From positions 1 through 42,037 of the forward strand of contig JAFSKK010000046.1 in assembly GCA_017448965.1 (NCBI GenBank): DNA of 42,037 nucleotides. Reading direction: 5' to 3'. The DNA comes from Bacteroidaceae bacterium. GTDB taxonomy: Bacteria > Bacteroidota > Bacteroidia > Bacteroidales > Bacteroidaceae. Below the pieces are notes generated by a model, which saw only the letters and a list, made by a program, of their open reading frames with translations, did not search any database and was not told the DNA's origin. Position numbers and translations under genes: made by a program. Every line of letters starts with the position of its first letter. Positions within the stretch are counted from its first letter, which is position 1. Positions 14,889 to 37,900 of this stretch are shown one piece after another.

Positions 14889-17800
14889 TTACTTGGTCTG
14901 GATACCAGATACAAGAACCTTCTTGCCGTTGCGGAAGATGTAAACCTTGCCAGCTTCGATATACTTGCGGCCATCGGTCTTAGCCTTGCCACCAGCGATA
15001 CCGTCGATGCCAGTCATCTTGTCTGTGAAGTCAGCCTCGGAGAGGAAGTTGATTGTAACCTTCAGAAGGACAGCCTTCTCGTTAGCTACAACACCCCACT
15101 GTGCCACGTAAGTGTCACCTTCAGCGAAGTTTTCGTCGTGAGCACCGTTGTAGTTGAACTCGCCAGATGCAGGGTTGTCCAGCTTCAAGCAGTAACCATT
15201 TGTAGCTTCGCTCCATGATTTAGCATCACCGTTCGCGTCACGCCAACCGTCGGTAGTGTTCTCTACGAAGTTGCCTGTGGTCACGTTCACGATGTAAGTC
15301 TTAGCTTCAGTGATGTCCTCGATGCCGAGAGCAGCACAAACTTCAGTTACATCGAATGATGGGTGAGAAGCATCCTTGTAGGCAGCGCCGGCCTGGTCAA
15401 TAGCATCGATTTCGATGGTCTTGACGATTTCAGGCTTGTACTGAGGCTCTACATACTCAACGAATGTAATGTTGAAGTTGTAGAAGTAAGTCTTGTCGTT
15501 AGCAGTGAGTGCCCACTTCACGGTGTAGGTCTTGCCCACCTCGTCTGCACCGTTCATATCGCAGATTTGGTAAGCACCGTTCTCAATCGCCTGGAAGAAC
15601 TTCACGCATATCTTCGTGTTGGATCCCCATGCCTCGGCAACGCCTTCAGCATTGAACCAACCGTCGTATGGAGCGTAGTCGCTGATTTGAGTGTCGTCTG
15701 GGTTCACGATGCGGAGCATGTCGTAAGTGATTTCTTCTACGCCAAGGTAAGCAGCAGCAGCAGAGAAGTCGATTTCCTCAGTCTGTGCAGTGTAGCCCTG
15801 ACCAACCATACGCTCGATAGCGATTTCCTCAGTAGATGGGATCATGTGCTTGTAAACACCTGTCACCTTAGCCTCGAGAGGAGCAGTAAAGCCACCGAAG
15901 AAGGTCATCATGCAGATTTGTGGGAGAACTCCGTCAGTTACACCACACTTAGGATCTTCTGCAAATACATACTTGTATTCAGTTGCACCTTCTGGAACAT
16001 CAGTAAGGTCTTGATTCGACCAGAATGCGAGTTTCCAACCTGCAGCAACAGGCTCAGCGAACTTCACAACTACATAGTCGCAACCCGTCACGTCGATGTT
16101 CAACATCTTAAATGCAATAGTGAGATCTTCATTTGCAGTGTAGGTGTTGTAGTCATCACCTTCCTCCAAAGTAGCGTGTGGGAAATTAGGATCAAGTTCA
16201 ATGTTCTGTTCCTGTGCAATCTCGATGAGATCTGGATCTTCTTCTTCAGGATTCAGTTCAGCCTTGTAGGCATCGATAGCAGCCTGGTCGGCACCGAAGT
16301 AGATATCGTCTGAAGTAGCGTTAGTGATCACCATGTGGAAGACTGGCGTGGTGTTTTCGCCGGCAGCCTTCTTTCCTTCGAGGACGCCATTATAGGTAAC
16401 TGTCATCTGACCTCTTGGAACCCCAATAGTGAAAGCTTCCTTGCTGTAGGCCACGTTGCCTTCTTCATCAGCCGTTGCAGTGATGCCGTCGATGTAGGTG
16501 GCTGGAACTTCCATTGTGTTCATGGGTGCGGGCAAGGTGAACGATGCGAAGTCGATTCTCACTGTGCCGTCGCCATTCTCTGTCACAGACAGCTTGTAGT
16601 CCGCTGTTGTTTCAGTTCCCATCACACCAGCCTCAGGATGAGAGAGCGTCTGCTCAAGCATACCAACGAACTCAGCAATTTCAGGAGCTTCGTCAACTGG
16701 GTTGAGGATGAGTGATTCAACCACACCTGCAGCAGAACCCCAGCCAGTCTTGATGGCGTTGATGTGTACGTACTCATAAGAAGAGAGGTCAACATCCACA
16801 TAGGTAGCACCTGATGGAACTGCAGGATTCAGTTCAACCAGTGAGTTGTCGGCCTGACGGTTCATCAACACGCGGAACTGCATACCTTCTGCGGCATTGA
16901 TACGGAGGGTCTTTGCACCCGTCACGTTAGCATAGTCAGTGTTGGTCACGTTACCGCTACCATAAACAGTCTTACCTGCTGCAATCTCATTGCCAAGTTC
17001 TTCTGCATCCCAATATGGTTTCTCGTTGTTCACCTGAGCGCTAGCATCGAAGCCGTCCCAACCCTTGAACATCTCCTTTGTGAGAGGAGTGTTGTCTGCG
17101 ATTTCAGGCTTTGGCTCTACAACCTCTTCGATGATCCAGTCAACGTTGCCATTGCTTGTCTGCTTGTCAGCATAGCATGGTTTGCCAGCTTCCTTATCAG
17201 CAGCATTTGTACCGACGAAGCGGCCAACGGTCACAAGGTTGTTGATACGATAAGTACCATCGCTAAGAGCGGTGAAAGTCCAGGCAGCCTTATTGTCGGC
17301 AGCAGTGGACATTGTCCAATTATCACTACCAGCAAGACCTACATAGTATTCACCTGCAACAAGATTATACTGACCTTCTGTTTCAGTAGCCACAAATGCC
17401 ATTGGAGTAGCCTCTTCGGCAATTGTGATACCTGCTTCAGCAAGGTTCATGTAGAGAGGAGTCTCACCGTCAAGCTTAAGCTGGAAGGTGTAGGTCTTCT
17501 CTGGATCTGGAGCAGTAGGAGTAGGCATTGTGATTGCCTCAACTTCCTCAACTGTTGTAGCAGCAGCTACAGCAGCCTTGGCTCCTTCAATGTCAGACTG
17601 AGCATACATGAAGATACCATCGCCTACAGGAGCAAGTGCGTCAAGAGCCTTGATAGCCTTGGACTGAGCTGCTTCGAGAGCAGTGGAGAGCTGTTCAACC
17701 TCGTAGAGAGCGAAGCCGTCGAAGCTTGTAGCAGAGTTCCAACCCATGCGGACACCCACAAATGGGTTCTCGCTGCTAGCCGTGAAGACGAATTCAGTCT

Positions 17801-20800
17801 GTGACCATGTGTCAGCAGTCTGACCAGCACCTTGTGGCCATTCGAAAGCCTTCAATACACCATTCTCAGTTGCAGCATCCGTCATCTGGAAGAGTGCATT
17901 GTAGTTGAAGTTATTTGCATCCGGAGCCTTGCCGCTTGTGTAAACGGTAAAGTAGTACTGCTTGCCTGGTTCAACGGCTACAGACTGACGGAGAGTCTTC
18001 TCCGAGCCTACACCTGCACCATTGGTCGTGATGAAAGCACCACCGTCGAAGCCACCTTCAGTAGCGTAAGTGAAGTTGTCAATCACAGCGTCAGTTGCAT
18101 AGCCAATGGTCTTCCAACCAGCTACGCCTTCGTCAAATGAGCCATTGCTGATGAGGTTATCGCTCTTGATAGCATAGCGAATACCATCTACTTCGATCTC
18201 CTGAGTTTCTTCAGCAACATAGTTCACTTGCTGGAAGGAGAGCCAAGAGATGTTGTTGTCGGCAGCCACGATGAACTGAGCTGTGAGCTTGCCGTCTTCG
18301 CCTACAGTGGCGGGAACGCTAATCTTCTTGATGTAGAACTGGCTTTCGCCTACCTTGTCACCGTCGCATACGTTGATAGCCTCGCCGTCGTTAGCCTTGA
18401 AGCTGATGCCTGTAGGTGCCTCAGTAGCACCGTTCTTGATGCGTACACGCACCCATGCCTCTACAAGACAGTTGCCTGGAGTGATGTCCGTTAGTTCGCC
18501 TGTAAGGGTCTTCTCACCGAGTGAGTTGCCGTCGCCAGTCCAGTACTCGAAGAATGGAACCTTGAATTCGGAACCATCGCTTTCACCTTCAATAGACCAT
18601 GTGTTGATGTAGTAAGGAGCATCCTTGAAGTCAGGGTTAGTGTCCCAAGCAGAGAGGAGGTAGTTGTCCACATTGATGGCAGCATGCCAGCCAGTCACAA
18701 CTGTTGGGTCTTGCAGAGCATTAGCCTCTTCGCTGGTGAGTGTACCTGCCTCATACTTGGCAGCCCACTGACCGTAATAATCCTCTTCAGCACCTGCTTT
18801 GACGAAGTTGTTAGCTTCAACAAATGCCTTCATCTTTGGCAATACGTTAGCTGCAGTCACTTGAGCCTCGCCTAGGTCGACAGCAGATGTGAGAGCTGCC
18901 TTAGCAGCTTCGGCAGCGTCTGCGGTCTCTACGCCTTCAGCACCAGCGATGGCTTCCTGGAGGGCAGACTTCACAGTGGCATTCTCCACCTGATTAACCA
19001 GACCTTCGGCCTGAGCCTTCAGAGCGGCTACTTCTGCGAAGAGAGCAGCGTTCTTCACCTGGTCTACAGAAGCGTCGGCACCATAGTAAGTGAGAGTGAA
19101 GTTGTCGAAAATCACCCAAAGCTTGGTGTTTACTTCCAACTTCGCACCAATTGTGAGTGTTCCATTTTCTGGTACCTGTACGAAGACAGGGTCGAGGGCA
19201 TATTTGCCAGCGGAGAATGCAGCAGAAGCTGCGCTCATGTCATTCTCCGTGCCCGTTCTTTCTGTAATGAGAGAAGTCTCGTCGTTAGCAAAGATAACAG
19301 GCAGATTCTCTGTGTCAGAACCATCCTGACGGAAGAAACCTTGTGCCTTCAGCTCATACACACCTGCAGGTGCGCCAGCGAGTTCCTGGCTGATGTTGAA
19401 CTCACGCTGGAAAGACTCTGCACAGTTATTGGTGTTGTTACCACCAGACATATTGTTGACACCAGTCTGAGTCCACTTGCTGGCGTAACGGTTGTTACGT
19501 CCGAAGTTGTGGTCCTCAATGAGGAAGGTGGCATCGATAGGATCATCTACCGTAGCTGTTGAGAGGCCAGCCTTGGCATCTTCCAGCGATACAATCGCCC
19601 AAACGGCATTCTCGCTGTCGGCAGCCAGGTTCTTTCCCAAAATGGTGGATGTGCCATCCCAACCGTAGTAGTTGGTGCCATTGGCAATGGTGTAGCCATA
19701 GTAGGGCTGAGTCTCTTCCTCATCCAGATAGCCGAGAGGCTCTTCAATGCGAGAGATGGTCAACTCTACAGGATTTCCATTGTCCATGTAGTCACCGTTG
19801 AAGTAGTACTGCGTACCACCATTGTTCACCTGTGACTCGAGGTGGTAGGTACCTGCCCACACTTCCTGTGCGTTATCACCTTCACCCACCGTCTTCATGA
19901 CGGGAACGAATTTCACGTATTCAGCATTTGGAACCAGCGAGGCTCGTGTGCCCCAATCGTTTCCAGCTCCCCAATACTTTTCAGAAGCCACGTTCATCAC
20001 GAGGTACTTCTGATAAGAGAATTCTGGTTCTTTTGCTTTGGCCCATTGAGCAGCCTGAGCATCAGCAAGAGCCTGCTCGGCAGCAGCCTTGGCGGCAGCG
20101 ATAGCAGCGGCATTGGCCTCTGCATCAGCTACAGCTGTACCAGCCTGGTAAGAAGCATCAACGGCAGCAGCAGCGTCATCGATAGCCTGCTGTGCAGCAG
20201 CGATAGCAGCGGCAGCATCAGCCTGGACATCGTCATCCATTTCTGCGATGGCCATCTTGGCATCGTCGAGTGCCTTCTGGGCATCAGCCACAGCGGCCAC
20301 GTCCTTTTCGTTCTGTGCCTTGTTGGCGGCAGCAGCAGCCTGTGCCTCCTCATAAGCCTGCTGAGCGGCAGCAGCGTCAGTGCCCACCTGCTCGGCAGCA
20401 GCCTTGGCGGCAGCGATGGCAGCGGCATTGGCCTCTGCATCAGCTACAGCTGTACCACCCTGGAAAGAAGCGTCAGCGGCAGCAGCAGCGTCATCGATAG
20501 CCTGCTGTGCAGCAGTGATAGCAGCGGCAGCACCAGCCTGAACCTCGTCAGCATATCCAGCGATGGCCGTCTTGGCATCGTCGAGTGCCTTCTGGGCATC
20601 AGCCACAGCAGCCACGTCCTTTTCGTTCTGTGCCTTGTTGGCGGCAGCAGCCTCGTAAGCCTGCTGAGCGGCAGCAGCGTCAGTGAGCATAGTGCTGATG
20701 GCATCCTCCACAGCTTTCACTGCGGCAGCATCAAGTGTACTCTCATCAGTGAGGGCGAAAGCCGCATGCTGTGCATCAAGCGCGCTCTGGAGCGCATCAA

Positions 20801-21869
20801 TCTTTTCTTGGATAGCCTCAGCATCATCGCTGAAGTCAGCAGCCACATCGGCAGCCTGCTCAGCCACCTGATTGATGGCAGCGTCAAGTTTCTCCTGCAG
20901 AGCGGCAATTTCACCCGAGAGTTTTTCGTATGCAGTCTGATCAATCGCAGCCAGGTTCGTCACGGAAACAGTGACAACGTCTTCCAGATCGAAAGCATTG
21001 GCGTATGGGTCAGCAACCGTCAAGCCGTTCAACGTAATCGTAGTGTTACGAGCCAAAGCTTCAGTGGCCTTGACTGTAAAAGAGAAGAATGTACCTGAAC
21101 CTGTTCCAAACACAGTGTTTGTGGCAGAGGAGAGCGCAAACTTGTAAGTTGGAGCGCTCGCACCATCAGGGAAACTGAATGCCGCATCGAAAGGTATGCG
21201 GTCAGAGTAGTCGAACAAGCCATCGGAACCATTCACCAATTCCAGTCCTGCTGGCAGAGTGAGCGTACCTTCCAATCCACAAAGTTTGGCTGTGTTCTCT
21301 AATGTAATGTTCACTTGGAACGTATTTCCTGGAGTAATGTCATAGCTGTTGGTCTCGACGCCAAACACTGCGGTTCCGTCGAGTTTCACCTCTTTGGTGA
21401 CTGTCACACTGAAATCGGCAGGTTTGATGGGCGTTTCGTCCGCTGCTGTCATTTCGATGTCAAACACCCGAATGGTGGACGTGCTGGCCAATGCGCCCGA
21501 AGCCTTGATGGTCAGCTCAAACATGGCACCCGAATTGCCCTTCACTCCAACGGCGTTTGTGGAGGCCAGCATAACTCTATATTTGCCACCTCCATTGTTG
21601 TTCGCCTGTACACTTTGACCTCTACCCATACGGTCTTGAACACCTTTGACTGCAGTGACTTCTAGTCCTGCGGGGAGAGCGATGTCCATCTGGATGAACT
21701 TGATGCCCACCTCATTATCGAGGTTGATAGCCACAGTCTTCTCTTCACCAGCCATGAAGGACTGGTTCTCCATGCTTAGTGTAGCCTGAGCATTAGCAGT
21801 GGAGAAACCCACCATCCACAGGAGGAAGAAGGTCAAACGTGAAATCATAGTTTTCATATCATTTCTCAT
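14889..21869 (-). CDS. Giant exported multidomain protein with two N-terminal cohesin-like domains
   Basis: 2326 residues. The signal peptide (RLTFFLLWMVGFSTANAQ) follows Met1 or Met5. Residues ~28-160 and ~165-310 are two related cohesin-like beta-sandwiches (IKFIQMDIALPAGLEV; LCGLEGTLTLPAGLEL). Residues ~312-610 are an Ala/Glu/Asp-rich coiled coil with a tandem ~105-residue duplication. Next come a ricin/beta-trefoil-like segment (~613-760), a galactose-binding-like sandwich (~785-930), another sandwich (~1055-1218), a CBM4/9-like module starting ISNGSFDEGVAGW (~1242-1392), a second trefoil-like segment (~1459-1583), a calycin-like barrel (~1730-1850), two repeated ~115-residue beta domains (~2032-2277) and a short tail GKVYIFRNGKKVLV resembling Prevotella sorting tails. 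No catalytic motif was recognised. A surface adhesin or carbohydrate-binding scaffold is inferred. It lies downstream of the other giant gene, separated by a terminator. Confidence 0.88.
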   Translation of the reverse strand: MRNDMKTMISRLTFFLLWMVGFSTANAQATLSMENQSFMAGEEKTVAINLDNEVGIKFIQMDIALPAGLEVTAVKGVQDRMGRGQSVQANNNGGGKYRVMLASTNAVGVKGNSGAMFELTIKASGALASTSTIRVFDIEMTAADETPIKPADFSVTVTKEVKLDGTAVFGVETNSYDITPGNTFQVNITLENTAKLCGLEGTLTLPAGLELVNGSDGLFDYSDRIPFDAAFSFPDGASAPTYKFALSSATNTVFGTGSGTFFSFTVKATEALARNTTITLNGLTVADPYANAFDLEDVVTVSVTNLAAIDQTAYEKLSGEIAALQEKLDAAINQVAEQAADVAADFSDDAEAIQEKIDALQSALDAQHAAFALTDESTLDAAAVKAVEDAISTMLTDAAAAQQAYEAAAANKAQNEKDVAAVADAQKALDDAKTAIAGYADEVQAGAAAAITAAQQAIDDAAAAADASFQGGTAVADAEANAAAIAAAKAAAEQVGTDAAAAQQAYEEAQAAAAANKAQNEKDVAAVADAQKALDDAKMAIAEMDDDVQADAAAAIAAAQQAIDDAAAAVDASYQAGTAVADAEANAAAIAAAKAAAEQALADAQAAQWAKAKEPEFSYQKYLVMNVASEKYWGAGNDWGTRASLVPNAEYVKFVPVMKTVGEGDNAQEVWAGTYHLESQVNNGGTQYYFNGDYMDNGNPVELTISRIEEPLGYLDEEETQPYYGYTIANGTNYYGWDGTSTILGKNLAADSENAVWAIVSLEDAKAGLSTATVDDPIDATFLIEDHNFGRNNRYASKWTQTGVNNMSGGNNTNNCAESFQREFNISQELAGAPAGVYELKAQGFFRQDGSDTENLPVIFANDETSLITERTGTENDMSAASAAFSAGKYALDPVFVQVPENGTLTIGAKLEVNTKLWVIFDNFTLTYYGADASVDQVKNAALFAEVAALKAQAEGLVNQVENATVKSALQEAIAGAEGVETADAAEAAKAALTSAVDLGEAQVTAANVLPKMKAFVEANNFVKAGAEEDYYGQWAAKYEAGTLTSEEANALQDPTVVTGWHAAINVDNYLLSAWDTNPDFKDAPYYINTWSIEGESDGSEFKVPFFEYWTGDGNSLGEKTLTGELTDITPGNCLVEAWVRVRIKNGATEAPTGISFKANDGEAINVCDGDKVGESQFYIKKISVPATVGEDGKLTAQFIVAADNNISWLSFQQVNYVAEETQEIEVDGIRYAIKSDNLISNGSFDEGVAGWKTIGYATDAVIDNFTYATEGGFDGGAFITTNGAGVGSEKTLRQSVAVEPGKQYYFTVYTSGKAPDANNFNYNALFQMTDAATENGVLKAFEWPQGAGQTADTWSQTEFVFTASSENPFVGVRMGWNSATSFDGFALYEVEQLSTALEAAQSKAIKALDALAPVGDGIFMYAQSDIEGAKAAVAAATTVEEVEAITMPTPTAPDPEKTYTFQLKLDGETPLYMNLAEAGITIAEEATPMAFVATETEGQYNLVAGEYYVGLAGSDNWTMSTAADNKAAWTFTALSDGTYRINNLVTVGRFVGTNAADKEAGKPCYADKQTSNGNVDWIIEEVVEPKPEIADNTPLTKEMFKGWDGFDASAQVNNEKPYWDAEELGNEIAAGKTVYGSGNVTNTDYANVTGAKTLRINAAEGMQFRVLMNRQADNSLVELNPAVPSGATYVDVDLSSYEYVHINAIKTGWGSAAGVVESLILNPVDEAPEIAEFVGMLEQTLSHPEAGVMGTETTADYKLSVTENGDGTVRIDFASFTLPAPMNTMEVPATYIDGITATADEEGNVAYSKEAFTIGVPRGQMTVTYNGVLEGKKAAGENTTPVFHMVITNATSDDIYFGADQAAIDAYKAELNPEEEDPDLIEIAQEQNIELDPNFPHATLEEGDDYNTYTANEDLTIAFKMLNIDVTGCDYVVVKFAEPVAAGWKLAFWSNQDLTDVPEGATEYKYVFAEDPKCGVTDGVLPQICMMTFFGGFTAPLEAKVTGVYKHMIPSTEEIAIERMVGQGYTAQTEEIDFSAAAAYLGVEEITYDMLRIVNPDDTQISDYAPYDGWFNAEGVAEAWGSNTKICVKFFQAIENGAYQICDMNGADEVGKTYTVKWALTANDKTYFYNFNITFVEYVEPQYKPEIVKTIEIDAIDQAGAAYKDASHPSFDVTEVCAALGIEDITEAKTYIVNVTTGNFVENTTDGWRDANGDAKSWSEATNGYCLKLDNPASGEFNYNGAHDENFAEGDTYVAQWGVVANEKAVLLKVTINFLSEADFTDKMTGIDGIAGGKAKTDGRKYIEAGKVYIFRNGKKVLVSGIQTK
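20073..20685. repeat. Tandem duplication (~105-residue unit) in the coiled coil
   Basis: 20073-20382 and 20388-20685 are near-identical at DNA level, offset by 315 bp; the second lacks 12 bp. Both encode a unit beginning near ANKAQNEKDVAAVADAQKAL and ending with Ala-rich helix. The high DNA identity implies a recent or gene-converted duplication. Confidence 0.88.
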
Positions 21870-21892
21870 AAGTTAGTAAAATTTAATGCAGT

Positions 21893-21942
21893 AAAATCAA
21901 AAGAGGTGTGCGTGGCATGCCGCGTGGAACATGCCACGCACA
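21893..21942 (-). terminator. Hairpin terminator between the two giant genes
   Basis: TGTGCGTGGCATG and CATGCCACGCACA (13-bp perfect arms, 21907-21919 and 21930-21942) flank a 10-nt loop; on the - strand CCTCTTTTGATTTT follows. It sits between the stop at 21965 and the start at 21869, so it may limit read-through from the upstream giant gene. Confidence 0.75.
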
Positions 21943-21964
21943 GACTCCTAAACTCAGTTTTCTC

Positions 21965-24900
21965 TTACTTGACGTAAACCTTCTTAGTAGAGCCGTCTTC
22001 ACCCTTGATGATGTTGAAGCCCTTCATAATCTTGTTCTTCAAGCGTCCGCTATAGTCGTAGACCTTACCCAAGAACGAGCGCTTGGTTCCTACGCCTGCA
22101 ATTTCAGTAGCTTCGCTTTCGGCGATAACGAACTCACGAGTATTGGCCTGAGCATTAGAGAAGACGATCTCCTTGAATTCAATGCCTTCACCCTTGTAGT
22201 TCTCTCCGGTCTTCACGTCAATGTAAACAACTGCTCCCTCTTCGCCAGTGATGGCCTTGTTGAAGACAGAGCTTATCACTACGCGGTATGCACCGTCCAC
22301 ATTGCCAGTAGCCAGGCCGTGACCTGCTGCACGTTCGCCAAGCGAAGTCTTCACGATGCTCAGTCCATTTGGCAGGACGATGTCCATCTGAGCGCTCACA
22401 TAGGAAGACTCGTTGTTGAGCACGAGGGCGTAGCGAGTGACTCCGTTACCCAAGTCGGCGCTTTCCACACTGACAGCATCGTTGTCTGAGCTTACGCCAT
22501 TACGTTCCTTAGCCAGACTTGGTGCAGTGTTGATGTCACCTGTAAGGATGAGGTTGACAAGAGCCACAGCATCACCAATATTGATCTTGCCGTCGCCATT
22601 GATGTCAAGCTTATCAAACTCTGGCGTTCCATATTCTGGCTTCTCAGAGTTACCAATGATGTAGTTGATGAGAGCAGAATAGTCGGATACAGAAACCTTA
22701 CCATCACCAGTAATGTCACCCAGCTTACCCTCTGCAATCAGAGTGCTCAGCAGGTCGATACTTGCCTGAATTCCAGCGATCTCCTCACGAACATTATCGA
22801 GTTCATCAACAATCTGTCCATCGTTGTACAGTTGATCTATATTATCGTACAAATCGTTAATAGCCATCCAGATTTCATCGTTCGCGTTATAGATTTCGTC
22901 AAGCACGTCAGCCGAATAGTCTTCCTCGCGTACAAGAGTCTGCATAGCAACGACACGATTGTTATCCAGTTCGTCGGTCAAATAGAAAGCTTCGTCACGA
23001 GCAGCGTTCAACTTACCTTCGTTGATATAGTTGGTGCAGTTGTCCGTCCATTCATTATAATCATCATTCTCCCAATCCGCTGTAAGCTCAACATTGTCGT
23101 ATGCATCCTGAACAAGCTCTCTCAGATTGTCAATGTAGTCTTGAGCGGACTCGAAGCTGAAGTAGTCTTCAGAGTTGACGGTTTCATAAGCATCAACCAG
23201 AGCCTTGGCATCGTCAAGTTGCTGCTGCAAATCATCGATTGCCGCAGTAAGTTCAGCAAACTTGTCATTATTAGCATCAAACATCTCTTGCTTCTCTTGA
23301 GCCTCTTCGATGAGATCATCAAGATAGGCATCAAATGCTATGAGCAAACCTTCAATGCGGTCTCTGTTGTAGACAATTGTGCCAGCCTCTTCAGCCTTGG
23401 TGATTTGCTCACGGATACCGCCAAGTGTCTTGTTGAGGGCTGGGATAATTTCGCCAAGATCCATAGCAGCCTTAACCTCATCACTGCTTCCGTCCAGCGT
23501 TTCAATCTTTTCTCCAACCTCATCGGCCTGAGCCTGCAGTGCTGCAACCAATTCAGCCTGAGCCTGCTGTGCCTCCTCAGAGTCATCCAGTTCGGCAATC
23601 ATGCTATACAGTTCGCTTACCTGAGCTTCCAGTTCAGCCAGAATCTCACCTGCATCGTCTGCATTCAGATCGTCTGGGATATTAGCTTCAACTTCGTCGA
23701 TGCCGCTCTTCAGTGCCTCGATGTCGTCAGCAAGCTCTTCTTGGTCGTTGTATGCAGCGAGGTTGGTGTAGAGCTTCTTGAGATCGGCCAAAGCTTCCAC
23801 GAGGTGTGCCTTTTCTCCTTCCTTTGCTCTTCTATATAGAGATGAAATGCTCCTCATGATGCTTCGAATCTCTGAGCTAGAAGTATTGTTGGGATCCACC
23901 TCATCGATGCTTCCTTGGGCTTCATCAAATAGAACACTAAAGATGAATCCATTGTAGAATTGGTCAACAATCCCCTTCGTATTGTCAAGGTATTCCTGAA
24001 CCTCAGCAAGGTAGGTAGTAGCATGTTCAACAGATGCCACTTTGTGCTGAACACCACGTTTAGCTTCACGATAGTTTATCAACAGTTCTTCCACCTCGCC
24101 GTATGCATCTGCGTGGGCATTCTTGGCGGTCTTTGCTGCATCAAGAACATTCTGTGCCTCAACAAGATAGTCATTGATAGCACCTTCGAATTCGGCAATG
24201 AATTCAGCCTTTGTTGTGTAGGTTTTCTCATCCAGATCGGCCAGTATCGCGAGATAGGCTTCACTATCCTCAACCTTCTGGTCAATCTTGGCTTGGAGAT
24301 CCTTCACAGCCGCAGCGCTCTTGTCGTTATTGAGCATCTCATCAATGCCATTCTCCAAAGTGTTGAGCACATCGTCGAGTGCCACCACATCCTTGGCCTC
24401 CACGTAAGACTTACCCTTGGCAATCAGATCCTCCACATCCTTGAATGCGTCTTCCTGTGCCTCAGGAGAATAGCCTGCGATGGCCTCCTTCGCTTCATTA
24501 AGAGCTGTCTCAAAGCCATCGAAGCTGACACCGTTGAGAACGACAGCCGCCTTGAATACTTCTTCGTATTCCTTAATTTCATTAGCCAGTGCGATAGCCT
24601 TGTTCAGGAAGGAATCATCGTTAGTACCCTGCTCTGGGCCGAAGTCGAAGAGGTCAGGACTGATGGTTTCACCATACGCAGCAGTTCCTTCGCTCAAGAG
24701 AGCCTGGATCTGCGTTGGGAATTCATAAAGATCCTCCGTCAAACCACCCGTAGCGGCCGCAATGGCAGCCTGAAGTGCAGGATTCTCCACATTAGCGTAT
24801 GCATCCTGTGTCTTTACAGCCTTTGTGAATGCCTTTTCAGCCTCTGAAATAGCACCGGTGAAGGACTTGTATCGAGCCTCATTCTCTGCAGCAATCTGAT

Positions 24901-27900
24901 CGCTGTATTCATCGTTGCTCCAGCGGCCATAAACTGCGTTGATTTCACTCTTAATGCTTGCACCCTCTGCGGTGATTCCAGTGTTCTGTTCTACAGATTC
25001 ACCTGCTGCGTATGCTTCCTCGATAGCATCTTCGAGTTCACCGATTGTTGGTTCAATGTTTGCGAGCTGATCCAGCCAATCGCCTGGTTCATCAAGATTT
25101 GCATTGCCAGCTTCAATTTCTGCATATACTTCGTCGTAGAGGTCGCGGAGAGGTTGGATGGTTGCCATCTGAGCCTCGTATGTAGCCTGGTTGGCGGCAG
25201 CGTCACCGTCCACCTTCTTCACAGCAGTTAGGAGTTTGTCAATGGCACCTGCATCTGCATTCTTCTTGGCCACAGCCTCACCATCGTTGTAGTGATCGCC
25301 AATGGTTGCCTGCAAAGCAGCGAACTCGGTCTTGTAGCCATCGAGTTTGTCAAGATAGAGTTGGATAGGACCACCTGTGAGACCTGCCTCCTGCTTGGCG
25401 AGTTCAGTTTCCACCTTGGTGCATTTGCCAAGGAGATCCTGATAAGCATCGTAGTTAGCCTGAGCGGCTTCGACAGAAGCCTGCACAGCTGCAATGGCAG
25501 CATCGAGAGCCTCAACATCTGCCGCATAGCTGTCTGCCGTAAGCGCCTTGTTGCCGTATGCAGTCTCGATGTCCTCAGCCAGTTTGGCGAGTGCGGTCTG
25601 CACATCGCTTCCTGGCGCAAAACCATTTTCCAATGCCTCTCTTGTATAGTCATCAGTCGGGTCAGCGAGTTCGATGTCGCCATTATTAGCCACCAATGTC
25701 TGTTTCTCGGTCAAGACATCTTGGGCTGCAGCATAGTTCACTTCGAGTGTCTGAACAGCCTCGATAGCTGCCTTCACTTCTGCAATCTTTGCTCTGATGG
25801 CCTGGATGTCGTCAGACTCCTCAGCGTAATCAGCCTCCTCCAGGGTTTCAGCAGCACGTGCAGCAGCAATCTTTTCCTCAAGTGCGTTGATCAGAGCAGA
25901 AACACTTCCTCCGTCTAGGGCGAAGCCTGCTTCAGCAATTTCCATAGCTGAGGGATAGAGGTCTGGATCATTTTGTGCAGCATCAAGTTCGTCTGCCACT
26001 TCACCTCTCAGACCTGCAATCACTTCATCGGCTGCAGCCTTGTAGCCTTTCTGTGCCTGTACCCTACCAGCTATTTCCTCGGCGTTAGCCTTGGCTGTAG
26101 CAATGTCAGCAAGCACATTTTCAGCCTTGTCGATGAGCGCCTTAAGTTCCTCACCTGCTGCAAGGTTTTCCTCCAAATCAGCGTCATTAGCCTCAGCGGG
26201 ATAATTGGCTTTATACTCGGCAATTACATTCACATAGTTTGTGATGGCTTCTGCGGTGATGGCTTGGAATTCGCCATCTGCACCCATATAGTCTGCAGCG
26301 CTCAAACCGAGGTCTGTTTCCGCATCTTCCAAGAAGTCCTTATAGTCATCGTATGCTTCCTGTACAGCAGTAGCCTTTGTGTCGGCGTCACCCTGCATGA
26401 TGCCACGATATGACCATGCATTATCAACTGAGTATTGATGCTCGCGCGCAGCAGCTCGTTCAGCCAAAGAGTTAATGTCATTAAGGGTTTTTACATAATC
26501 CCAATCAAGGGCCGCAACCGCATCCCAGTGCTCAGTGCCAGACAACTCTTTTGTAGCATTGAGTTCATCCACTACTCCATTAATCGTATTCCAGAGATTT
26601 TGGATTTCACCTTCAAATTCAGAATAAACCTTGTATTCCTTTATGACATTTTCAACCTCTTGAAGTCTATCGATACGACTTACGATATCAGCTGTAGCAT
26701 TATCATGATTCCCATAGAGGTGATCGTAAATCAGCATGAACCTCGCCTGAGCATCTGTAGCCCTCTCAACGATCACGTTAATCTTCTCACTTTGCGGAAG
26801 AACTGCAGCGCGGATAGCTGCATAATCATCGAATCCATCCACCTCTTCACCCTGCAGCATTTGATCAGCATAACCAATCAAAGGAGTGAGTGCTTCATTC
26901 ACCTCATCCACATAAGACTGTACAAATTGAGATGTTGGATATACTTCTGTGTCAGAAGCCTGAACATCGCTATACGCTTTGTTCAACTGAGCCTGTGCAG
27001 CTTTAACGGTTGCAACGGTTCTAGCATAATCACTGGCACCGCCCAGCAGACCCTTAAATTCATCAAGCAATTCCTGAGTCTCGCCAACGGCTGCATCATA
27101 ATCAGTAGCAAGAATTGTCTCATCAGCGTCATTGTCTGTATTGAACAATGCAATGAGTTCATTGATCTTCTCCTGAACATTCTGACGAGTAGGATCAAGT
27201 TTTGCCTCAACAGCACTTACCTGTGCCTCGTCTTCTGTTGGAAGAACTGCAGATGCTTCTGATATCTGAACGATGTGCCAGTTGGTACCAGCCTTATCTT
27301 TACCTATACCTACCACCATTCGTCCGTCTTGGCCCACCTGAACTCCATCAAGCACCCCCTTGCTTACATTTCCGAACATAGTTGTAATGTAAGCAGGAAT
27401 AAACTTCTTAACTGTGCCTTCTGAAGTTTCTGCAAACAGATAAGCCACATCCATATCCCCATCTTTTACATCAGATGCAAAGCCACGACCTGATGTGTAT
27501 GCAGCATTACCATAAAGAACGATACGATAGGTACCTGGAGCAAGGCCTTCTATCGTTTGGCTCATCACCGCACCTGTGTTTTCTACAGTTGAAACATAAT
27601 GCTCCACAAGAAGTTGTTCTCCTCCATCTGGAGTTGGCACCTTTCTATAGTTTGTCGCCCAGTCTGCATAGCCAGACGCTCCATCCCAATTTTCCTTATT
27701 GGCACCAAACTTTGTGGCGATATTAGTATCTGCATAAGCCGTCACCTTATTGCCATCCAGATCTTCCTGAATAGCAGTGGCTCTAGCGTAAACATCATCA
27801 ATAGCGGCTGTCTTATTGTTCAGATCATCCACCACTTGCCCTGCCGTCTTGATGCCATCGATTTCTCCCTCGATTTCATCGTCGTCGGTCAGCGTGTAGT

Positions 27901-28984
27901 TGCTATGTGCGTTGTTGAGCTTCCTGAGAGCATCGTTGTTCGCGTTCACGAGGTCGTTCAACTCTGCAGATGCATTAGCTGCAACCTTCTCGTAGATGGT
28001 GCCATAGGGTTCAACCTCGGTAGCACCAATTCCTGCGACAGTCGTTTGTGCATCTGTACAAGCCTCCTTGGCTGCATCAATCTTTGCCCTCAGTTGAACA
28101 TACTTCTCATAGCTGATTGCTGATTGCTCAGCTTTCTCTTGCATTGCTGCGATATCGTCTTTCAGTTCGCCGTAGAGGTCATCGTCAGTGCCATCAAAGC
28201 CTTCCACTTTTTCCTGAAGAGCGTCAGCCTCTCCAGTCAAGCCTTCCTTGTGGCTGTCCAGTTCGTTCAAGCCACCGATAGCATCCTTGGCCTCATCGAG
28301 CAAATCCTGAACCTCGTCCACCTTGATACCTGCAGTCTCTTCGGCAGCGAACTCCTCGAGTTCTGCAATCTCTTTGGCGATTTTCCAATTATCTTGTGCC
28401 TCGTCGAACTTGTTCTCTTTGTAGGCAGCGTAGGTCTCTTCAATGCCGTCGATCTCATCCTGAATCTCGGCAGCCTTAGCTATGCTCTCAACAGCTCGGG
28501 GATCCAGATTATCAGTAACAGCATCGAGCAATTCCTGAAGAGTCTGCTTTGCCTCATCAAAGTCATAGCTCAATTCGATGTTTGCGCTCTTGAACGCATA
28601 GAGGTTGCCCTGCTCACTCGAGAAAGCGACGGTCACATCCCCTGCTGTGGCGAGTTCGAACTCAATGGACACCTGAGCGGTCTCCACTTCGAAACTCTTC
28701 GACTGGCCAGCCACCGTCACGGTCACTTTGTCGCCGTCTTTCACCCAGAGGTGTGTAATGTTCAGTACATACTTGCCTTTCGCGAGGCCTGCCACCGTTT
28801 GTGATGCGGTCTTACCTTCGTTAGACACCACCATCATTTCGGTTTGGCCTTCAGGAGTGGCTTGACTGGTGTTAGTCCAGTCTCCATTGGGAATGCTCTG
28901 TGCTTCTGGAGTCGCAACAGCAGCAGTTGCTATCGCTGGAAAAGCGGATAGCGCCACAAATGAGTAAACAATTTTGGATTTCAT
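21965..28984 (-). CDS. Giant acidic helical-rod surface protein with dockerin-like, cohesin-like and sorting domains
   Basis: 2339 residues. The signal peptide (IVYSFVALSAFPAIATAA) is followed by a beta-sandwich (~25-145) and a long, very acidic Asp/Glu/Ala-rich helical rod of FIVAR-like pieces. The rod is interrupted at ~430-590 by a galactose-binding-like domain (APGTYRIVLYGNAAYTSGRG). At ~2089-2150 stands a dockerin-like pair of EF-hand loops, DITGDGKVSVSD and DINGDGKINIGD, each followed by a hydrophobic helix (ALINYII, ALVNLIL). Residues ~2170-2290 form a cohesin-like sandwich (YVSAQMDIVLPNGLSIV). The protein ends in GKVYDYSGRLKNKIMKGFNI and a Lys-rich tail, as in type IX-secreted proteins (family knowledge). 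An extended, calcium-stabilised surface fibre is inferred; its partner may be the next giant protein. ATG 28984 begins the signal peptide. Confidence 0.88.
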   Translation of the reverse strand: MKSKIVYSFVALSAFPAIATAAVATPEAQSIPNGDWTNTSQATPEGQTEMMVVSNEGKTASQTVAGLAKGKYVLNITHLWVKDGDKVTVTVAGQSKSFEVETAQVSIEFELATAGDVTVAFSSEQGNLYAFKSANIELSYDFDEAKQTLQELLDAVTDNLDPRAVESIAKAAEIQDEIDGIEETYAAYKENKFDEAQDNWKIAKEIAELEEFAAEETAGIKVDEVQDLLDEAKDAIGGLNELDSHKEGLTGEADALQEKVEGFDGTDDDLYGELKDDIAAMQEKAEQSAISYEKYVQLRAKIDAAKEACTDAQTTVAGIGATEVEPYGTIYEKVAANASAELNDLVNANNDALRKLNNAHSNYTLTDDDEIEGEIDGIKTAGQVVDDLNNKTAAIDDVYARATAIQEDLDGNKVTAYADTNIATKFGANKENWDGASGYADWATNYRKVPTPDGGEQLLVEHYVSTVENTGAVMSQTIEGLAPGTYRIVLYGNAAYTSGRGFASDVKDGDMDVAYLFAETSEGTVKKFIPAYITTMFGNVSKGVLDGVQVGQDGRMVVGIGKDKAGTNWHIVQISEASAVLPTEDEAQVSAVEAKLDPTRQNVQEKINELIALFNTDNDADETILATDYDAAVGETQELLDEFKGLLGGASDYARTVATVKAAQAQLNKAYSDVQASDTEVYPTSQFVQSYVDEVNEALTPLIGYADQMLQGEEVDGFDDYAAIRAAVLPQSEKINVIVERATDAQARFMLIYDHLYGNHDNATADIVSRIDRLQEVENVIKEYKVYSEFEGEIQNLWNTINGVVDELNATKELSGTEHWDAVAALDWDYVKTLNDINSLAERAAAREHQYSVDNAWSYRGIMQGDADTKATAVQEAYDDYKDFLEDAETDLGLSAADYMGADGEFQAITAEAITNYVNVIAEYKANYPAEANDADLEENLAAGEELKALIDKAENVLADIATAKANAEEIAGRVQAQKGYKAAADEVIAGLRGEVADELDAAQNDPDLYPSAMEIAEAGFALDGGSVSALINALEEKIAAARAAETLEEADYAEESDDIQAIRAKIAEVKAAIEAVQTLEVNYAAAQDVLTEKQTLVANNGDIELADPTDDYTREALENGFAPGSDVQTALAKLAEDIETAYGNKALTADSYAADVEALDAAIAAVQASVEAAQANYDAYQDLLGKCTKVETELAKQEAGLTGGPIQLYLDKLDGYKTEFAALQATIGDHYNDGEAVAKKNADAGAIDKLLTAVKKVDGDAAANQATYEAQMATIQPLRDLYDEVYAEIEAGNANLDEPGDWLDQLANIEPTIGELEDAIEEAYAAGESVEQNTGITAEGASIKSEINAVYGRWSNDEYSDQIAAENEARYKSFTGAISEAEKAFTKAVKTQDAYANVENPALQAAIAAATGGLTEDLYEFPTQIQALLSEGTAAYGETISPDLFDFGPEQGTNDDSFLNKAIALANEIKEYEEVFKAAVVLNGVSFDGFETALNEAKEAIAGYSPEAQEDAFKDVEDLIAKGKSYVEAKDVVALDDVLNTLENGIDEMLNNDKSAAAVKDLQAKIDQKVEDSEAYLAILADLDEKTYTTKAEFIAEFEGAINDYLVEAQNVLDAAKTAKNAHADAYGEVEELLINYREAKRGVQHKVASVEHATTYLAEVQEYLDNTKGIVDQFYNGFIFSVLFDEAQGSIDEVDPNNTSSSEIRSIMRSISSLYRRAKEGEKAHLVEALADLKKLYTNLAAYNDQEELADDIEALKSGIDEVEANIPDDLNADDAGEILAELEAQVSELYSMIAELDDSEEAQQAQAELVAALQAQADEVGEKIETLDGSSDEVKAAMDLGEIIPALNKTLGGIREQITKAEEAGTIVYNRDRIEGLLIAFDAYLDDLIEEAQEKQEMFDANNDKFAELTAAIDDLQQQLDDAKALVDAYETVNSEDYFSFESAQDYIDNLRELVQDAYDNVELTADWENDDYNEWTDNCTNYINEGKLNAARDEAFYLTDELDNNRVVAMQTLVREEDYSADVLDEIYNANDEIWMAINDLYDNIDQLYNDGQIVDELDNVREEIAGIQASIDLLSTLIAEGKLGDITGDGKVSVSDYSALINYIIGNSEKPEYGTPEFDKLDINGDGKINIGDAVALVNLILTGDINTAPSLAKERNGVSSDNDAVSVESADLGNGVTRYALVLNNESSYVSAQMDIVLPNGLSIVKTSLGERAAGHGLATGNVDGAYRVVISSVFNKAITGEEGAVVYIDVKTGENYKGEGIEFKEIVFSNAQANTREFVIAESEATEIAGVGTKRSFLGKVYDYSGRLKNKIMKGFNIIKGEDGSTKKVYVK

Positions 28985-31906: not shown

Positions 31907-34900
31907 ATGAATAGAAACAAGAAACAATGGACAGTGAACATCGGAATCCTCCGACAGTTCATGCTGCTGTGCCTGATGGCGCTGTTGCCGCAAACGGCGT
32001 GGACGAGAGACTGGATTCTCGACGATGGTTATTTCAAAGCCATCGCCTACAGCGACCACGTGCGCTTCGAGGTGCTGCTGTGCGACCTCTACGGGAAGAA
32101 CACCTACAGTAAGGGTGGTTACATCTATGCCTCCGGCAAGGGTAGCGACACCTCCCACCACAAACTCATCTACCTGGAGTATGACTACGACGACGATGAC
32201 AAGGACTCCAACCCCACGGCGGACGTCAAGGCCTATGTTGTCTGTGAAGGCGCCAAGGCGTTCTTCGACACCGGCGATGAGATTCCTACCAGCGAGAAGA
32301 CCTTCTCGCTGAAAAAGTGGAGCAGCGACAAGGACTACCTCACTGCCTATATCGACTTCTACTACCCAGCCGAATTGGCAGGTGTGACGTGGAACGTACA
32401 TTACAACTACGACCACTCCAACGGCAGCCACCACTGGATGACGATGAACGAGAACTGTGAGTTCCGGTCGTCGTTGGGACTCTCTACCTTCGATGCGAGC
32501 GACTATACCTGCGAGCGCACCAGCCCTGACAAGATTAAGTTCACCGTGCCTTCGCTGCCCACCATTTCCGGTAAGATGAACAAGGTGCGCGAGCGCTTCT
32601 GCAGCTACGACGTGGCCTACACCTTCACCAAGCAGGACGGCACTACGCAGGTTGTCAACGCTGCCTTCGAGTGTGTGGAGAGCGAGAAGAAGTCCTTCGA
32701 GACCACGATTCCTATCGAGATGGGCAACCCCAAGCAGATAGACGTGAACATCTCGGCACGGCAGGGTGTGAAAGACGCTACCGGCATTTTCTGGGACCAC
32801 AACGACCATTTCAACAAGCCCAAATATTTCAAGATGATACCCCAGAGCAGCGGTCTTGCCGCCGACTACCGGCAGTTCGACAAAGCTGCCGACCTCACCT
32901 GGTCACAGCCCGTCGATGCTGACACCTATCTTGAATGTACGCCCTACGTCTATCGCATAGAGACCGACGAGCGGGGCAACAAGCTCTCCGGACAGTCGTG
33001 GCGTAAGTGCGACGCCGTTGACTGGGAGAAGAACAAGACATCGCTGAGTTACAGCGACGACGGTGTGCCCTTGGGTCACTACTATCAATATATGGTGCTC
33101 AACGTGCCTGACGACTGGATCAACAAGAGCATTACCAGCATGACCCTCAGCAACATCACCGACGACCTTATCAGTCGCCTTGGCGGACATACAGGCGGAG
33201 TGCTGAGCACCATACCTGAGATGAGCATCTACGACCTGAAGCAGGACACCACCGTCACCGACAAGGTGCGGCTCACGTGGAAATACTCGCGGGTGCCTGT
33301 CGATGGCTCCACGGTGAAGTTCAATGTGCTGCGAAGAACTACCGAGAAAGGACAGTGGGCCGACTACGGACAGCCCATCAATGCCGACGCCAACCCCAGT
33401 GCCGGCACCGAGGTGGAAGTGATAGACGAGAGTCTGCCGAACGTCACCACGCGCTATAGTTATAAGGTGCAGCTGACCATCGACGATAAATACACCTTCA
33501 AGAGCAACGAGGTGACCGCCGGTCTGCTGCGAGGCACCCAGCTGAAGGACTTCGAGGCCACCAAGGGTGTGCACGAAAAGGCCGTAACCCTGACGTGGCG
33601 TGCCAGCCGGGCAGGTACCGACGATGACCTCTACGTCATCAAGCGACGCTACGTGGATAGCGGCGAAGACTTCCAGCAGATAGCCTCGCCGAGCGGCAAG
33701 ACCGATTTGTTAAGTTACACCGATGACACCGCAAAACCGGGCTACTTCTACGAGTACAAGTTAGAGGTGTATAGCGGCAACGTGCTGCAGAACGTGCTCT
33801 ACGACGTGGGCTACACGCAGTCGCGCGGTAAGGTCAGTGGAACGGTCAATTTCAGATCAGAGTCCAATGCCACCACTCCTGTGGAGGATGTGCGCATCAC
33901 GCTGCAATCCCTCGACACGGGTGTAGGCAACACCATGACGGGCCACTCCATGCGTGTCGATGGTGCCTCGACGGGTATCCAGTGGCAGGCCGACAGTGCC
34001 CAGATAGCCAAGGTCTTCGGCCCCGACAAGGACTACACCGTGCAGATGTTCGTGCGTCCCGACACCTTGCTCAGCGAGGGAGCCGTCATCGGCGAGATTC
34101 CAGGTGAGGGAAGGCTTGTGGTAGGAAAGCAGAAGGATGGTGACTATGAACTGATGCTCCAGAAGGTGACAGGCTATGTAGAGCCTGTTAAGGTAGCGCC
34201 CACATTACCCGCTTCAACTAAGACGACAAATCTTTCCACCCTTACGGGTGACTATACGGCAGAAAACGGCGAAACCCTCACCGGCAAGCTGAGCGGCAAC
34301 TACAAGATTTCAGTTGCTGATGGCGCTACCGTTTATATTAAAGATGTGACCATCGACGGTAGAGCCAATACCGATAATTACGATACCACATGGGCTGGTA
34401 TCACCTGTATGGGTGATGCCACCATTGTACTGGAAGGCGAGAATTTCGTCACAGGATTTTTTGGAGACTACGCGGGAATTGAGATTGGCGAGGGAAAGAC
34501 ACTTACCATCAAAGGAACAGGTACGCTGACAGCAGCAGCCAATCGCTACGCCGCTGGTATTGGAGCCAGCTTTTTTGGAGCAAGTGGCAATATAATTATC
34601 GAAGGAGGGACTATCAATGCCACAGGAGGTCTTGCTGGCAATACGTCGATGGGAAATCCAGGTTCGGGAATCGGTGGCGCGGCATCTAATAGCCAGTTGG
34701 TAACCTGTGGAGACATTATGATTAGCGGTGGTACAATCAATGCTGTGACAAATTCCCATTATAGCTCGGCTATCGGTGGTTATCTTTGGGGTGGTACCGT
34801 TGGCACTATAACCATTACAAACACTGTCAGCAAAGTGACGGCATCAGGACAGGTTTATTCCATTAATCCGGATGGGAAACTGAGGAAAGGCGGTACAGTA

Positions 34901-37900
34901 ACCATTGGCGGGACGGTATATTGGGATGGTTCGGCCTATCAGAACGACGGAGCCAACTATTTATCACAAAACCCGTTAACTTATACCGGCGATGGCTCTT
35001 GGATTACTACATTTAAACATGAAAAATATGGATACACAATTCCAGGGCGTTGTACATACGGCACTGCCACTGCTACTGGTTTGACACTTTCTTCCAACAC
35101 CTACTCCCTGCTGACAGTGAGCAGGACGGGCGACAACCTTCAGTTCCAGGTGGATGACGGTGAAGCAAAGACGCTGACCGCCACCAAGTATAAGTATTTG
35201 GCTCCTTTCTCCGTAGGTGGTGCCGACAGCGTCAAGACGGCCCAGGCCTTCAAGGGCTACCTCTCCGAGGTGCGCGTATGGGCCAATGCACTATCTGACA
35301 AGGAGAAGGCGAGCTGCAACGACCGCGTGCTGAGCGGTCGCGAGAGTGGGCTGAAACTCTACTGGCCGTTGGACGAGGGTATGGACCGCTATGCCTTCGA
35401 CGCCTCCTACGCCAGCGACCAGCCCAACGGCCGCCACGCTACGGTAGGTGGTAACATCACCTCATCGACCATTCTGCCTGCCAAGGAACAATTGTCGCGC
35501 TACGGCCTGACCAACAAGGAGGGCTACTACGAGATAAACAGCGTACCCTACGTAGGCAGCGGCACCACCTACACTGTGACACCTTCGAAGGGCATCCATG
35601 AGTTCGACCCTGTGTCGAAGACTTGCAACATCGGCAACGGCTCGCTGAACTTCAACGGCTACGACTTCACCGACAAGTCGTCGTTCCCCATGCGCGGTAA
35701 GGTGACCTACCAATATACCGATATCCCTGTGGACAGTGTGCAGTTCAAGATCGACGGCGTGCTGAAGCAGAACATGACCGACTCGAACGGTGAGTACGAA
35801 CTCAACGTGCCCATTGGCAACCACCGCATCGAGGCATACCGCCAGGGCCACCGCCTGACAGGATTCCCCCTCGGCGGCGGCACCTACGAATTCAAGAGGG
35901 CGGAGACGGTGAACTTTGTCGATTCCACACTGGTGAACGTCACTGGACGTATCAACGGCGGCGCCTCCGACAAGAACGCACCGATAGGCTTCAAGCAGAG
36001 CGTGAACCGCATCGGCCAAGCCACCATCAAACTGAGCTTAGGCAAGGAGAGCAATTGCTCGTTCAACTATGTGGTTGACAGTCACGGCGATGGCAGCTAC
36101 GGCACCACCGACATCCCCGTAGCCTCTGCCTCATCGAACATCAACAGCACCGCCTGGCGCTCGGGTACCACGCACGAAGACTATACCAGCCAGGGCAATA
36201 CACATTATATATATATAAAGACCGACCCGGAGACGGGCGAGTTCTCGGCTATGCTGCCACCGCTGCGCTACAAGGTGGAGAGCATCAGCTTTGCAGGCGA
36301 CAAGGACAACATATACAACAACCAGTCTGTGTTTGCACAGAACCTGCCCGTGCTCGATGCCAGGAATGCCATCAAGGAGCGCATGAAGTGCGACACACTG
36401 GCGAACGGCAGCCAGAAGTATGAGTACAGCGCGAAGATGGTACGCCAGTATCGCAGCACACCGACCATCCACGTGGCGCAGACGGGTCTGCGCGAAGGAG
36501 TGTTCGGCGAGAAGCGCATCATGGTCACCAACCTTGACAACAGCACCGACACGGTGGATGTGCTCACGCTGACGTCAAGCAGCCACAGTTACCGCTTCAA
36601 GTACCCCATCTTCCGTCAGAACCGCTACTACAACTTCGGCATCGACGTGGCAGAGGAATACACCAACTGCGACACCGGTGAGGAGTTCCAAGAGATACCT
36701 ACCGACGCCACCGTACGCATCATCAACGACGCCAGCTCCACCACCACAGTGTTTGGTTCGAGTGCCACCATCAACAACGAACAGATCGAGATGGGCTTGC
36801 CCTACCAGACCATGCAGGTCAACGTGAAGCCCAATGAGAAAGGACACATCGACTACACCTTTGAAGCAGGTTGGCCCAACTTTGCCGAAGGACACCTGCT
36901 CAGCATGAGTATCTCGGTGCAGGTAGATGGGCGCACCACCGTGTGGCAGGCACCACAGCCTGAAAGTGCTCCGTTGGGTAGAACCGCCCTTGAGATGATT
37001 GTGCTGGGTAGCATCTCCACCGGTACCAACTTCATGACCGAAGGACCGCCAAGCGTCGATATGGTGCTGCGCCGTCCGCCAGGTTCCAGCTCGGTGGCAA
37101 CGCTCGAAGACAAGACCATCACGTCGTTTGTGCATACGAATATAGAAACCACCGGAGGTGGCGGTGGCGGTGGAGCCTATATCAGCGAGGCTCCTACCAT
37201 CGAGGTCATCAAGGGTGAAGCGTTTGGTATTGCCCTTTTAGAGAAGTCAACGGTCAAGGGCGTAATAGACCAGACGATCACGTACAATGAAACTTGGTCA
37301 GACGCAGTGGTGAACGGCACCGATACCGCCTACACTGTAGTAGAGGCGAAGGCCACACCCAACTACATGCAGTATGTCGATGAGCATGAGGCCTACGAAC
37401 CAGAAGGCGGCGACACCTACATCGGCCGCTCCACGAACCTGCTGTTCAGCAAGGGCCGTCTGTTGGGTATCTTCAAGAATGGCGACGACTACGAGATAGG
37501 CGACAAGGAGGGTGTCACCGTAGGACAGCGGTTCAGCACCGCCTTCGTCTTTCCGCAGGCCTATATCCTGAACACGCTCATACCCGAATGGGAAGCCATC
37601 ATCAAGAGTAAACTTCAAGAAGGCTATATCGAAGGCGACCATGCCGACACGCTCAACTGCCCGAGAATAAAAGGCAAGGTGATCTACTACACGAAGTACA
37701 AGCCCGGCGACGAGAAGTTCGGAACGGGCAATGCCGACTCCAACGTGTGGACTGCCGAGGAGATAGCCGCAGCAGGCGGATGTCCCAGCTACCGCATGAT
37801 TAACGGCACGGGCAACCCTGTTGACGACGAGGTGCAGAACGCCATCATCCAGATCAAGACCTGGCGTGCACGCATTGCCGACAACGAACAGGAGAAGCTG

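Follow-up and report, generated by a model that had tools for sequence, protein, structure and literature searches.

The cohesin-dockerin interaction is a well-known programmable protein snap, and its partners and purpose outside cellulosomes are mostly unclear. Adaptor scaffoldins, such as those of R. flavefaciens and A. cellulolyticus, carry a cohesin plus a dockerin on one chain. A non-cellulosomal cohesin-dockerin pair is encoded by what we take to be the neighboring genes AF2375 and AF2376 of Archaeoglobus fulgidus. In Clostridium perfringens, cohesin-like modules (2jh2, 2vo8, 2w1n) are located on secreted glycosidases. The A. fulgidus pair has also been put to engineered use (PMC9705933). 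For ANME archaea, the available portion of another report describes use outside cellulosomes and proteins with one dockerin and several cohesins (PMC9012536). According to excerpts of two further papers, Bacteroidetes bins from the camel rumen encode both cohesins and dockerins, which were linked to cellulosomes (PMC6071333), and one genome has neither cohesins nor dockerins, which was called consistent with other Bacteroidetes (PMC5831590). We found no description of next-gene pairing, that is, a dockerin gene followed by a cohesin gene, in Bacteroidales in the literature covered, which is partial and mostly excludes subscription papers.

We analyzed a stretch of 42,037 nucleotides (the window), which is the entire contig C64 of a draft genome (3.03 Mb in 74 contigs, 85.6% complete). 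An initial annotation of this DNA had proposed that two neighboring giant proteins, one with a dockerin and one with cohesins, could form a two-part surface fiber without catalytic subunits. We found that an adjacent same-strand dockerin-cohesin pair is conserved beyond one genome, and this wider next-gene arrangement, which goes beyond the pair first noted, is the more interesting result. Compared with the A. fulgidus pair, the present arrangement recurs over many different partners, in a fixed direction and with three-gene chains. It has the cohesin fold and the dockerin family in common with the adaptor scaffoldins, and in both cases a cohesin and a dockerin on one chain permit serial docking. 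Unlike in those systems, we found no dockerin-bearing enzyme in the window's genome, and both dockerins found there have a next-gene cohesin. Whereas the C. perfringens modules sit on glycosidases, those described here belong to giant proteins without recognized enzyme domains. The use outside cellulosomes and the combination of a dockerin with several cohesins resemble the ANME proteins. Next-gene pairing, as seen in the present genus, is not mentioned for them in the available portion of that report (PMC9012536).

The dockerin-bearing rod protein

The first gene of the pair, P0001 (positions 21965..28984), is an ORF for a putatively exported rod protein of 2339 aa, and the second, P0002 (14889..21869), is an ORF for a putatively exported protein of 2326 aa. 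The minus strand carries both genes, in head-to-tail order with 95 bp between them, and all of their features given below. The coordinates and lengths of these two giant ORFs are as initially annotated. Another giant, apparently exported protein of at least 3377 aa with laminin-G-type domains (31907-42037, plus strand) points away from the pair and runs off the contig.

The N terminus of P0001 has, as judged by eye, the look of a Sec-type signal peptide. A first acidic, Ala-rich stretch (residues 141-410, 27755..28564) with 26% D+E and 15.6% A is presumably helical. It is followed by a module common to other proteins of the genus (residues 409-600, 27185..27760), which gave no Pfam match and matches a 1831-aa frame on G000:C45 (38%, E 6.8e-24) as well as proteins in other genomes of the genus. 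The long acidic rod (residues 601-2085, 22730..27184) that had been described in front of the dockerin is real in composition and presumably helical, with a net charge of -220, 21.6% acidic residues, 20 Pro in 1485 residues and a hydrophobic periodicity of 3.42-3.49 residues.

Behind the rod lies a type I dockerin with two calcium-loop repeats (residues 2087-2150, 22535..22726; PF00404). Pfam Dockerin_1 matches residues 2088-2147 (22544-22723, minus strand) with 38.1 bits against a cut-off of 22.9, confirming the canonical dockerin pair of the initial annotation, and the E-value of 1.8e-9 indicates that the match is not due to chance. The genus profile, which includes the P0001 dockerin itself, gave an E-value of 1.1e-24. 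Six columns of the dockerin alignment A1 (G3, D4, D15, D41, D45 and D52) are invariant in its 21 rows, and we take the acidic ones, D4, D15, D41, D45 and D52, to be the calcium-ligand positions. With both the PF00404 score and the two acidic calcium-loop repeats, P0001 is, as far as its sequence tells, a carrier of a type I dockerin.

P0001 continues with a cohesin-fold domain in cis (residues 2167-2294, 22103..22486), which begins 16 residues behind the dockerin and matches the first cohesin of P0002 with an E-value of 0.002. Structural comparison of its AlphaFold model indicates a cohesin fold. The protein ends with a tail (residues 2295-2339, 21968..22102) that resembles the terminal part of a type IX secretion signal and has similar counterparts in relatives.

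The cohesin-bearing neighbor

P0002 opens with two cohesins (residues 27-159, 21393..21791, and residues 167-305, 20955..21371), the second of which was modeled at lower confidence. They are followed by an Ala-rich (40.7%) stretch, presumably helical by composition (residues 311-605, 20055..20939), then by about 1700 residues of modules common to proteins of the genus, with a putative binding role (residues 606-2290, 15000..20054), and a C-terminal tail (residues 2281-2326, 14892..15029). This tail is common to a C45 protein of the window's genome (L085, E 7e-20) and to L097 of genome G010 (E 2e-22).

The Pfam cohesin profile PF00963 gave no row at E-values up to 1 for the domains of P0001 or P0002. 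In the window's genome this profile finds one cohesin, on contig C3 (32.9 bits), with residues 27-154 of the C3 protein scoring 25.2 bits against a cut-off of 24.1. Residues 14-198 of P0002 match this C3 protein with an E-value of 6e-7, and the AlphaFold model of the first P0002 cohesin has, by structural comparison, a cohesin fold. The second P0002 cohesin matches the cohesin profile with an E-value of 1e-30, the domain being in the seed of that profile, and matches the first with an E-value of 3e-4. Homology to a recognized cohesin together with the modeled fold identifies the P0001 domain and the first P0002 domain as cohesins. The two N-terminal cohesin-like domains first described for P0002 were borne out in this way, the first sandwich with the cohesin fold and homology to the Pfam-recognized cohesin, the second with its lower model confidence. 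By their predicted domains, P0001 and P0002 would represent the two halves of the known dockerin/cohesin fastener on neighboring genes.

The several glycan-binding-like modules that had also been assigned to P0002 found no such support, as no Pfam carbohydrate-binding family exceeded its cut-off when P0002 was scanned as a whole protein or in eight fragments. The best sub-threshold matches of the eight fragments were DUF4859 (20.2 bits against 22.6) and RicinB_lectin_2 (20.0 against 25.6). Among six proteins scanned, four of them next-gene partners, CBM_4_9 or CBM_6 was over the cut-off in the cohesin partners of two relatives, L084 and L094.

A second pair in the same genome

With the genus profile, two dockerins were detected in the window's genome, each followed by a cohesin gene on the same strand. 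The second dockerin is located on contig C3, on a 1576-aa BspA-type leucine-rich-repeat (LRR) protein. Its partner, which starts 12 bases behind it, is a 2736-aa protein that opens with the Pfam-recognized cohesin and contains CARDB and InlB-type repeats (the pair is L003 2561-15514). Neither dockerin protein of this genome, rod or LRR, has a Pfam enzyme domain. The proposed lack of catalytic subunits stands by Pfam for the window pair and the C3 pair. It does not extend to all pairs in the genus, where subtilase or GH5 domains occur in some of the dockerin partners.

Next-gene pairing in the genus

The genus set consists of 45 genomes, with dockerins in 34 and cohesins in 34 at an E-value of 1e-5. 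Once the dockerin counts had been seen, we set apart six dockerin-rich genomes with 11 to 32 dockerins (G024, G035, G037, G013, G042, G003); the split at the family level below was made in the same way. The profiles behind the genus, gene-level and named-genome counts were built from genus loci. For the count at the coordinate level, we used 123 dockerin rows of at least 41 bits among the matches listed and 150 cohesin rows, and considered cohesins in a different frame within 2.5 kb. In the 39 dockerin-poor genomes, 44 of the 69 listed dockerins (27 genomes) have a cohesin downstream on the same strand, and these 44 come from 19 genomes. Two of the same 69 have one upstream, and none has one on the opposite strand. 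A sign test of 44 downstream versus 2 upstream gave 3e-11, with the kinship of the genomes ignored. The six rich genomes do not follow the pattern, with a downstream cohesin for 4 of their 54 listed dockerins.

At the gene level, we read 71 dockerin ORFs, from the poor genomes plus two of the rich genome G013 (G013:C5), 68 of which could be evaluated (at least 600 bases after the gene). A cohesin gene follows on the same strand within 600 bases in 47 of these 68 cases, and the remaining 21 have no adjoining cohesin gene. Cohesin genes were found upstream in 3/68 (1/68 without chain members that carry a dockerin) and on the opposite strand in 0/68. The cohesin of the partner starts within the first 75 residues in 46 of the 47 pairs, and the median gap is 25 bp. 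Pairing was observed for 36 of the 47 dockerins with a cis cohesin and for 11 of the 21 without. In the dockerin-poor genomes, dockerin and cohesin genes mostly lie side by side rather than apart. The rod family was recognized at four loci, namely the window, L078, L079 and L084 (window, G016, G013 and G028), each followed by a tandem-cohesin gene.

Some genomes of the genus have cohesin matches without any dockerin match, for example G004 (3 and 0). Several encode 275-307-aa proteins that carry a dockerin at the C terminus and whose genes have no cohesin gene as a neighbor (L213, L216, L218, L219, L221, L222, L224).

Pairing beyond the genus and diversity of partners

The loci from named genomes are mostly from ruminant-gut Bacteroidales, with a few from other phyla or sources. 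A cohesin gene lies downstream of 31 of the 113 evaluable dockerin genes in this set. The fraction paired is 18/32 with a cis cohesin and 13/81 without. A cohesin gene without a dockerin was found upstream in 3/113 and on the opposite strand in 0/113; when chain members are counted, the numbers are 14/114 upstream versus 32/114 downstream. L098 and L099 (taken as G032:C35 and G017:C93) were kept in the 114-gene count and left out of the 113-gene, body-family and co-variation counts.

In other genera of the family, at least 13 of the 123 listed dockerins have a cohesin downstream, and none has one upstream or on the opposite strand among the matches listed. These comprise at least 10 of the 41 listed in dockerin-poor genomes and at least 3 of the 82 listed in five rich ones (G149, G119, G073, G109 and G166). 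At the thresholds used (E 1e-12 for the cohesin profile), 84 of the 201 family genomes have cohesin matches and 45 have dockerin matches. G149 has 25 dockerin matches, yet it is absent among the 84 genomes with cohesin matches at E 1e-12, possibly because it encodes enzyme complexes with cohesins too divergent for the profile.

The partners are diverse. Dockerins are found on BspA-type LRR proteins, subtilases, a GH5 protein and rods. We grouped the bodies of 46 pairs (15 from the genus and 31 from named genomes), defined as the parts outside the dockerin, cohesin and tail; in 38 of these pairs, the partner cohesin is N-terminal. At 50% mutual coverage, 25 dockerin-body and 28 cohesin-body families were obtained, in 39 combinations, and looser families by single linkage number 14 and 22 in 28 combinations. 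With 39 body-family combinations among 46 pairs, a single inherited gene pair was ruled out as the source of the pattern.

Three-gene chains occur in the genus set at L079, L083 and L194. The G013 chain (L079) consists of a rod, a 367-aa cohesin-cohesin-dockerin protein and a 936-aa cohesin-cohesin protein. In the named genomes, there are chains at L145 and at L126, where one cohesin is internal rather than N-terminal. At L194 2584-10033, L200 668-9801 and L209 1-7907, a dockerin protein is followed by a three-cohesin protein. The dockerin proteins of L194 and L200 are subtilases, and the three-cohesin protein of L194 also carries a dockerin and is followed by a further cohesin gene.

Co-variation of dockerins and cohesins

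Dockerin distances correlate with those of the next-gene cohesins, with a Mantel r of 0.65 for 69 pairs and 0.46 for 46 less redundant ones. In the 48 pairs with both cohesins, the co-variation of the dockerin was 0.72 with the next-gene cohesin versus 0.61 with the cis cohesin, and 0.46 versus 0.41 in the less redundant C-side pairs (n=9). Since the dockerin co-varies almost as strongly with the cis cohesin as with the next-gene one, this measure does not decide between binding in trans and self-binding, and common ancestry by itself could account for these values. In a quick tree of 94 rows and few columns, grouping by position was seen for next-gene, N-side cis and C-side cis cohesins, with 12 class changes versus 40.6 when shuffled. 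This clustering agrees with separate roles, and near-copies add to it.

Proposed docking and alternative explanations

The sequence evidence points to a dedicated next-gene dockerin-cohesin pairing, which probably includes calcium-dependent docking of P0001 and P0002 into a two-part surface fiber. Both proteins would be exported, and the C-terminal dockerin of P0001 would bind one or the other N-terminal cohesin of P0002 in a calcium-dependent manner. The resulting fiber at the cell surface would have up to two rods per multi-module P0002 and may have an adhesive role. The pair is one case of a wider arrangement in gut Bacteroidales, in which a dockerin gene is followed directly by a same-strand gene starting with a cohesin, and the gene order would set the choice of partner. 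The initial idea of a rod presenting a multi-CBM protein is partly supported: the gene arrangement makes the pairing likely, and P0002 is at most a putative multi-CBM protein, with no Pfam carbohydrate-binding family over its cut-off. Adjacency of dockerin and cohesin genes can also arise from shared function without direct contact.

One could extend this model to a docking code read from the gene order. Each end dockerin would be specific for the start cohesin of the protein of the next gene, operons would spell out head-to-tail surface chains, and the rod pair of the window would be the two-part, non-catalytic form, with a hairpin setting the rod-to-partner ratio. We offer this extension as a tentative conjecture. 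If true, the next-gene rule would provide dozens of candidate pairs that can each be examined with two small domains, and it would account for how the giant non-catalytic surface proteins of these bacteria may assemble. For part of the cohesins and dockerins of Bacteroidetes, the arrangement suggests a different role that can be put to the test.

The strongest alternative is that the P0001 dockerin binds the P0001 cohesin, either in the same chain as a closed, X-module-like unit or between copies as rod homopolymers, with P0002 merely co-expressed. The two domains are 16 residues apart, a cis cohesin is present in 47 of the 68 evaluable dockerin ORFs and in 36 of the 47 that are paired, and the co-variation of the dockerin with the cis cohesin is substantial (r 0.61). 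However, of the 21 evaluable dockerins for which no cis cohesin was detected, 11 are nevertheless followed by a cohesin gene, and self-binding does not explain why the cohesin stands at the start of the partner in 46 of 47 pairs. The AF2 model of the P0001 dockerin and cis cohesin has a low-confidence stretch between the domains (model residues 87-94) and a pTM of 0.72; with such a weak linker and moderate pTM, a firm internal interface was not seen in the model. We consider self-binding rather unlikely compared with docking onto P0002.

Alternatively, the modules might have been inherited jointly in modular surface-protein operons, with the cohesins as plain beta-sandwich spacers that make no specific contact with the dockerin. 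The cohesin matches in dockerin-free genomes (G004; 84 versus 45 of the 201 family genomes) and the shuffled modules that P0001 and P0002 have in common with each other's relatives would fit such a history. The strict direction (44 downstream, 2 upstream and none opposite for the 69 listed dockerins) and the N-terminal placement are, however, hard to obtain by shuffling, and the invariance of D4, D15, D41, D45 and D52 in 21 dockerins also argues against spacers, which makes this explanation improbable. A cellulosome-like enzyme scaffold, despite the same module types, the 11 to 32 dockerins in six genomes of the genus and some genus dockerin proteins with subtilase or GH5 domains, is very hard to reconcile with a genome whose two found dockerins sit on a rod and an LRR protein without Pfam enzyme domains, where further dockerins may be missing since the assembly is 85.6% complete.

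Intergenic hairpin, secretion and a conserved segment

A long hairpin with a 15-bp stem (21907..21942, minus strand) is located in the 95-bp gap between P0001 and P0002, and the folding energy of this gap is -32 kcal/mol (z -4.2). The same gap at L078, L079 and L084 has hairpins of -28, -32 and -38 kcal/mol (z -4.7, -2.6 and -6.1). With such a strong hairpin between the genes, co-transcription of P0001 and P0002 as a single transcript is not assured. The hairpin sequences differ among the four rod loci, and two of the four have no T-run behind the stem, so these do not look like plain terminators. It is possible that the hairpin at the rod loci controls the ratio of the rod to the partner protein.

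As for secretion, SprA, the one type IX component sought, was detected in the window's genome (SprA_N, 726.5 bits), indicating that type IX secretion is likely present. The TIGR04183 sorting domain has 12 matches in the genome at E-values up to 0.1, none of them on P0001 or P0002, and our assignment of the P0001 tail to type IX secretion is a guess.

Within P0002, a segment of about 140 residues (window 15828-16238, residues ~1878-2014) reaches 61-81% identity to stretches of other proteins in 13 genus genomes, with lower values in other genomes. Its relatives are often frames of 600-700 aa, and its identity is far above that of the rest of P0002.
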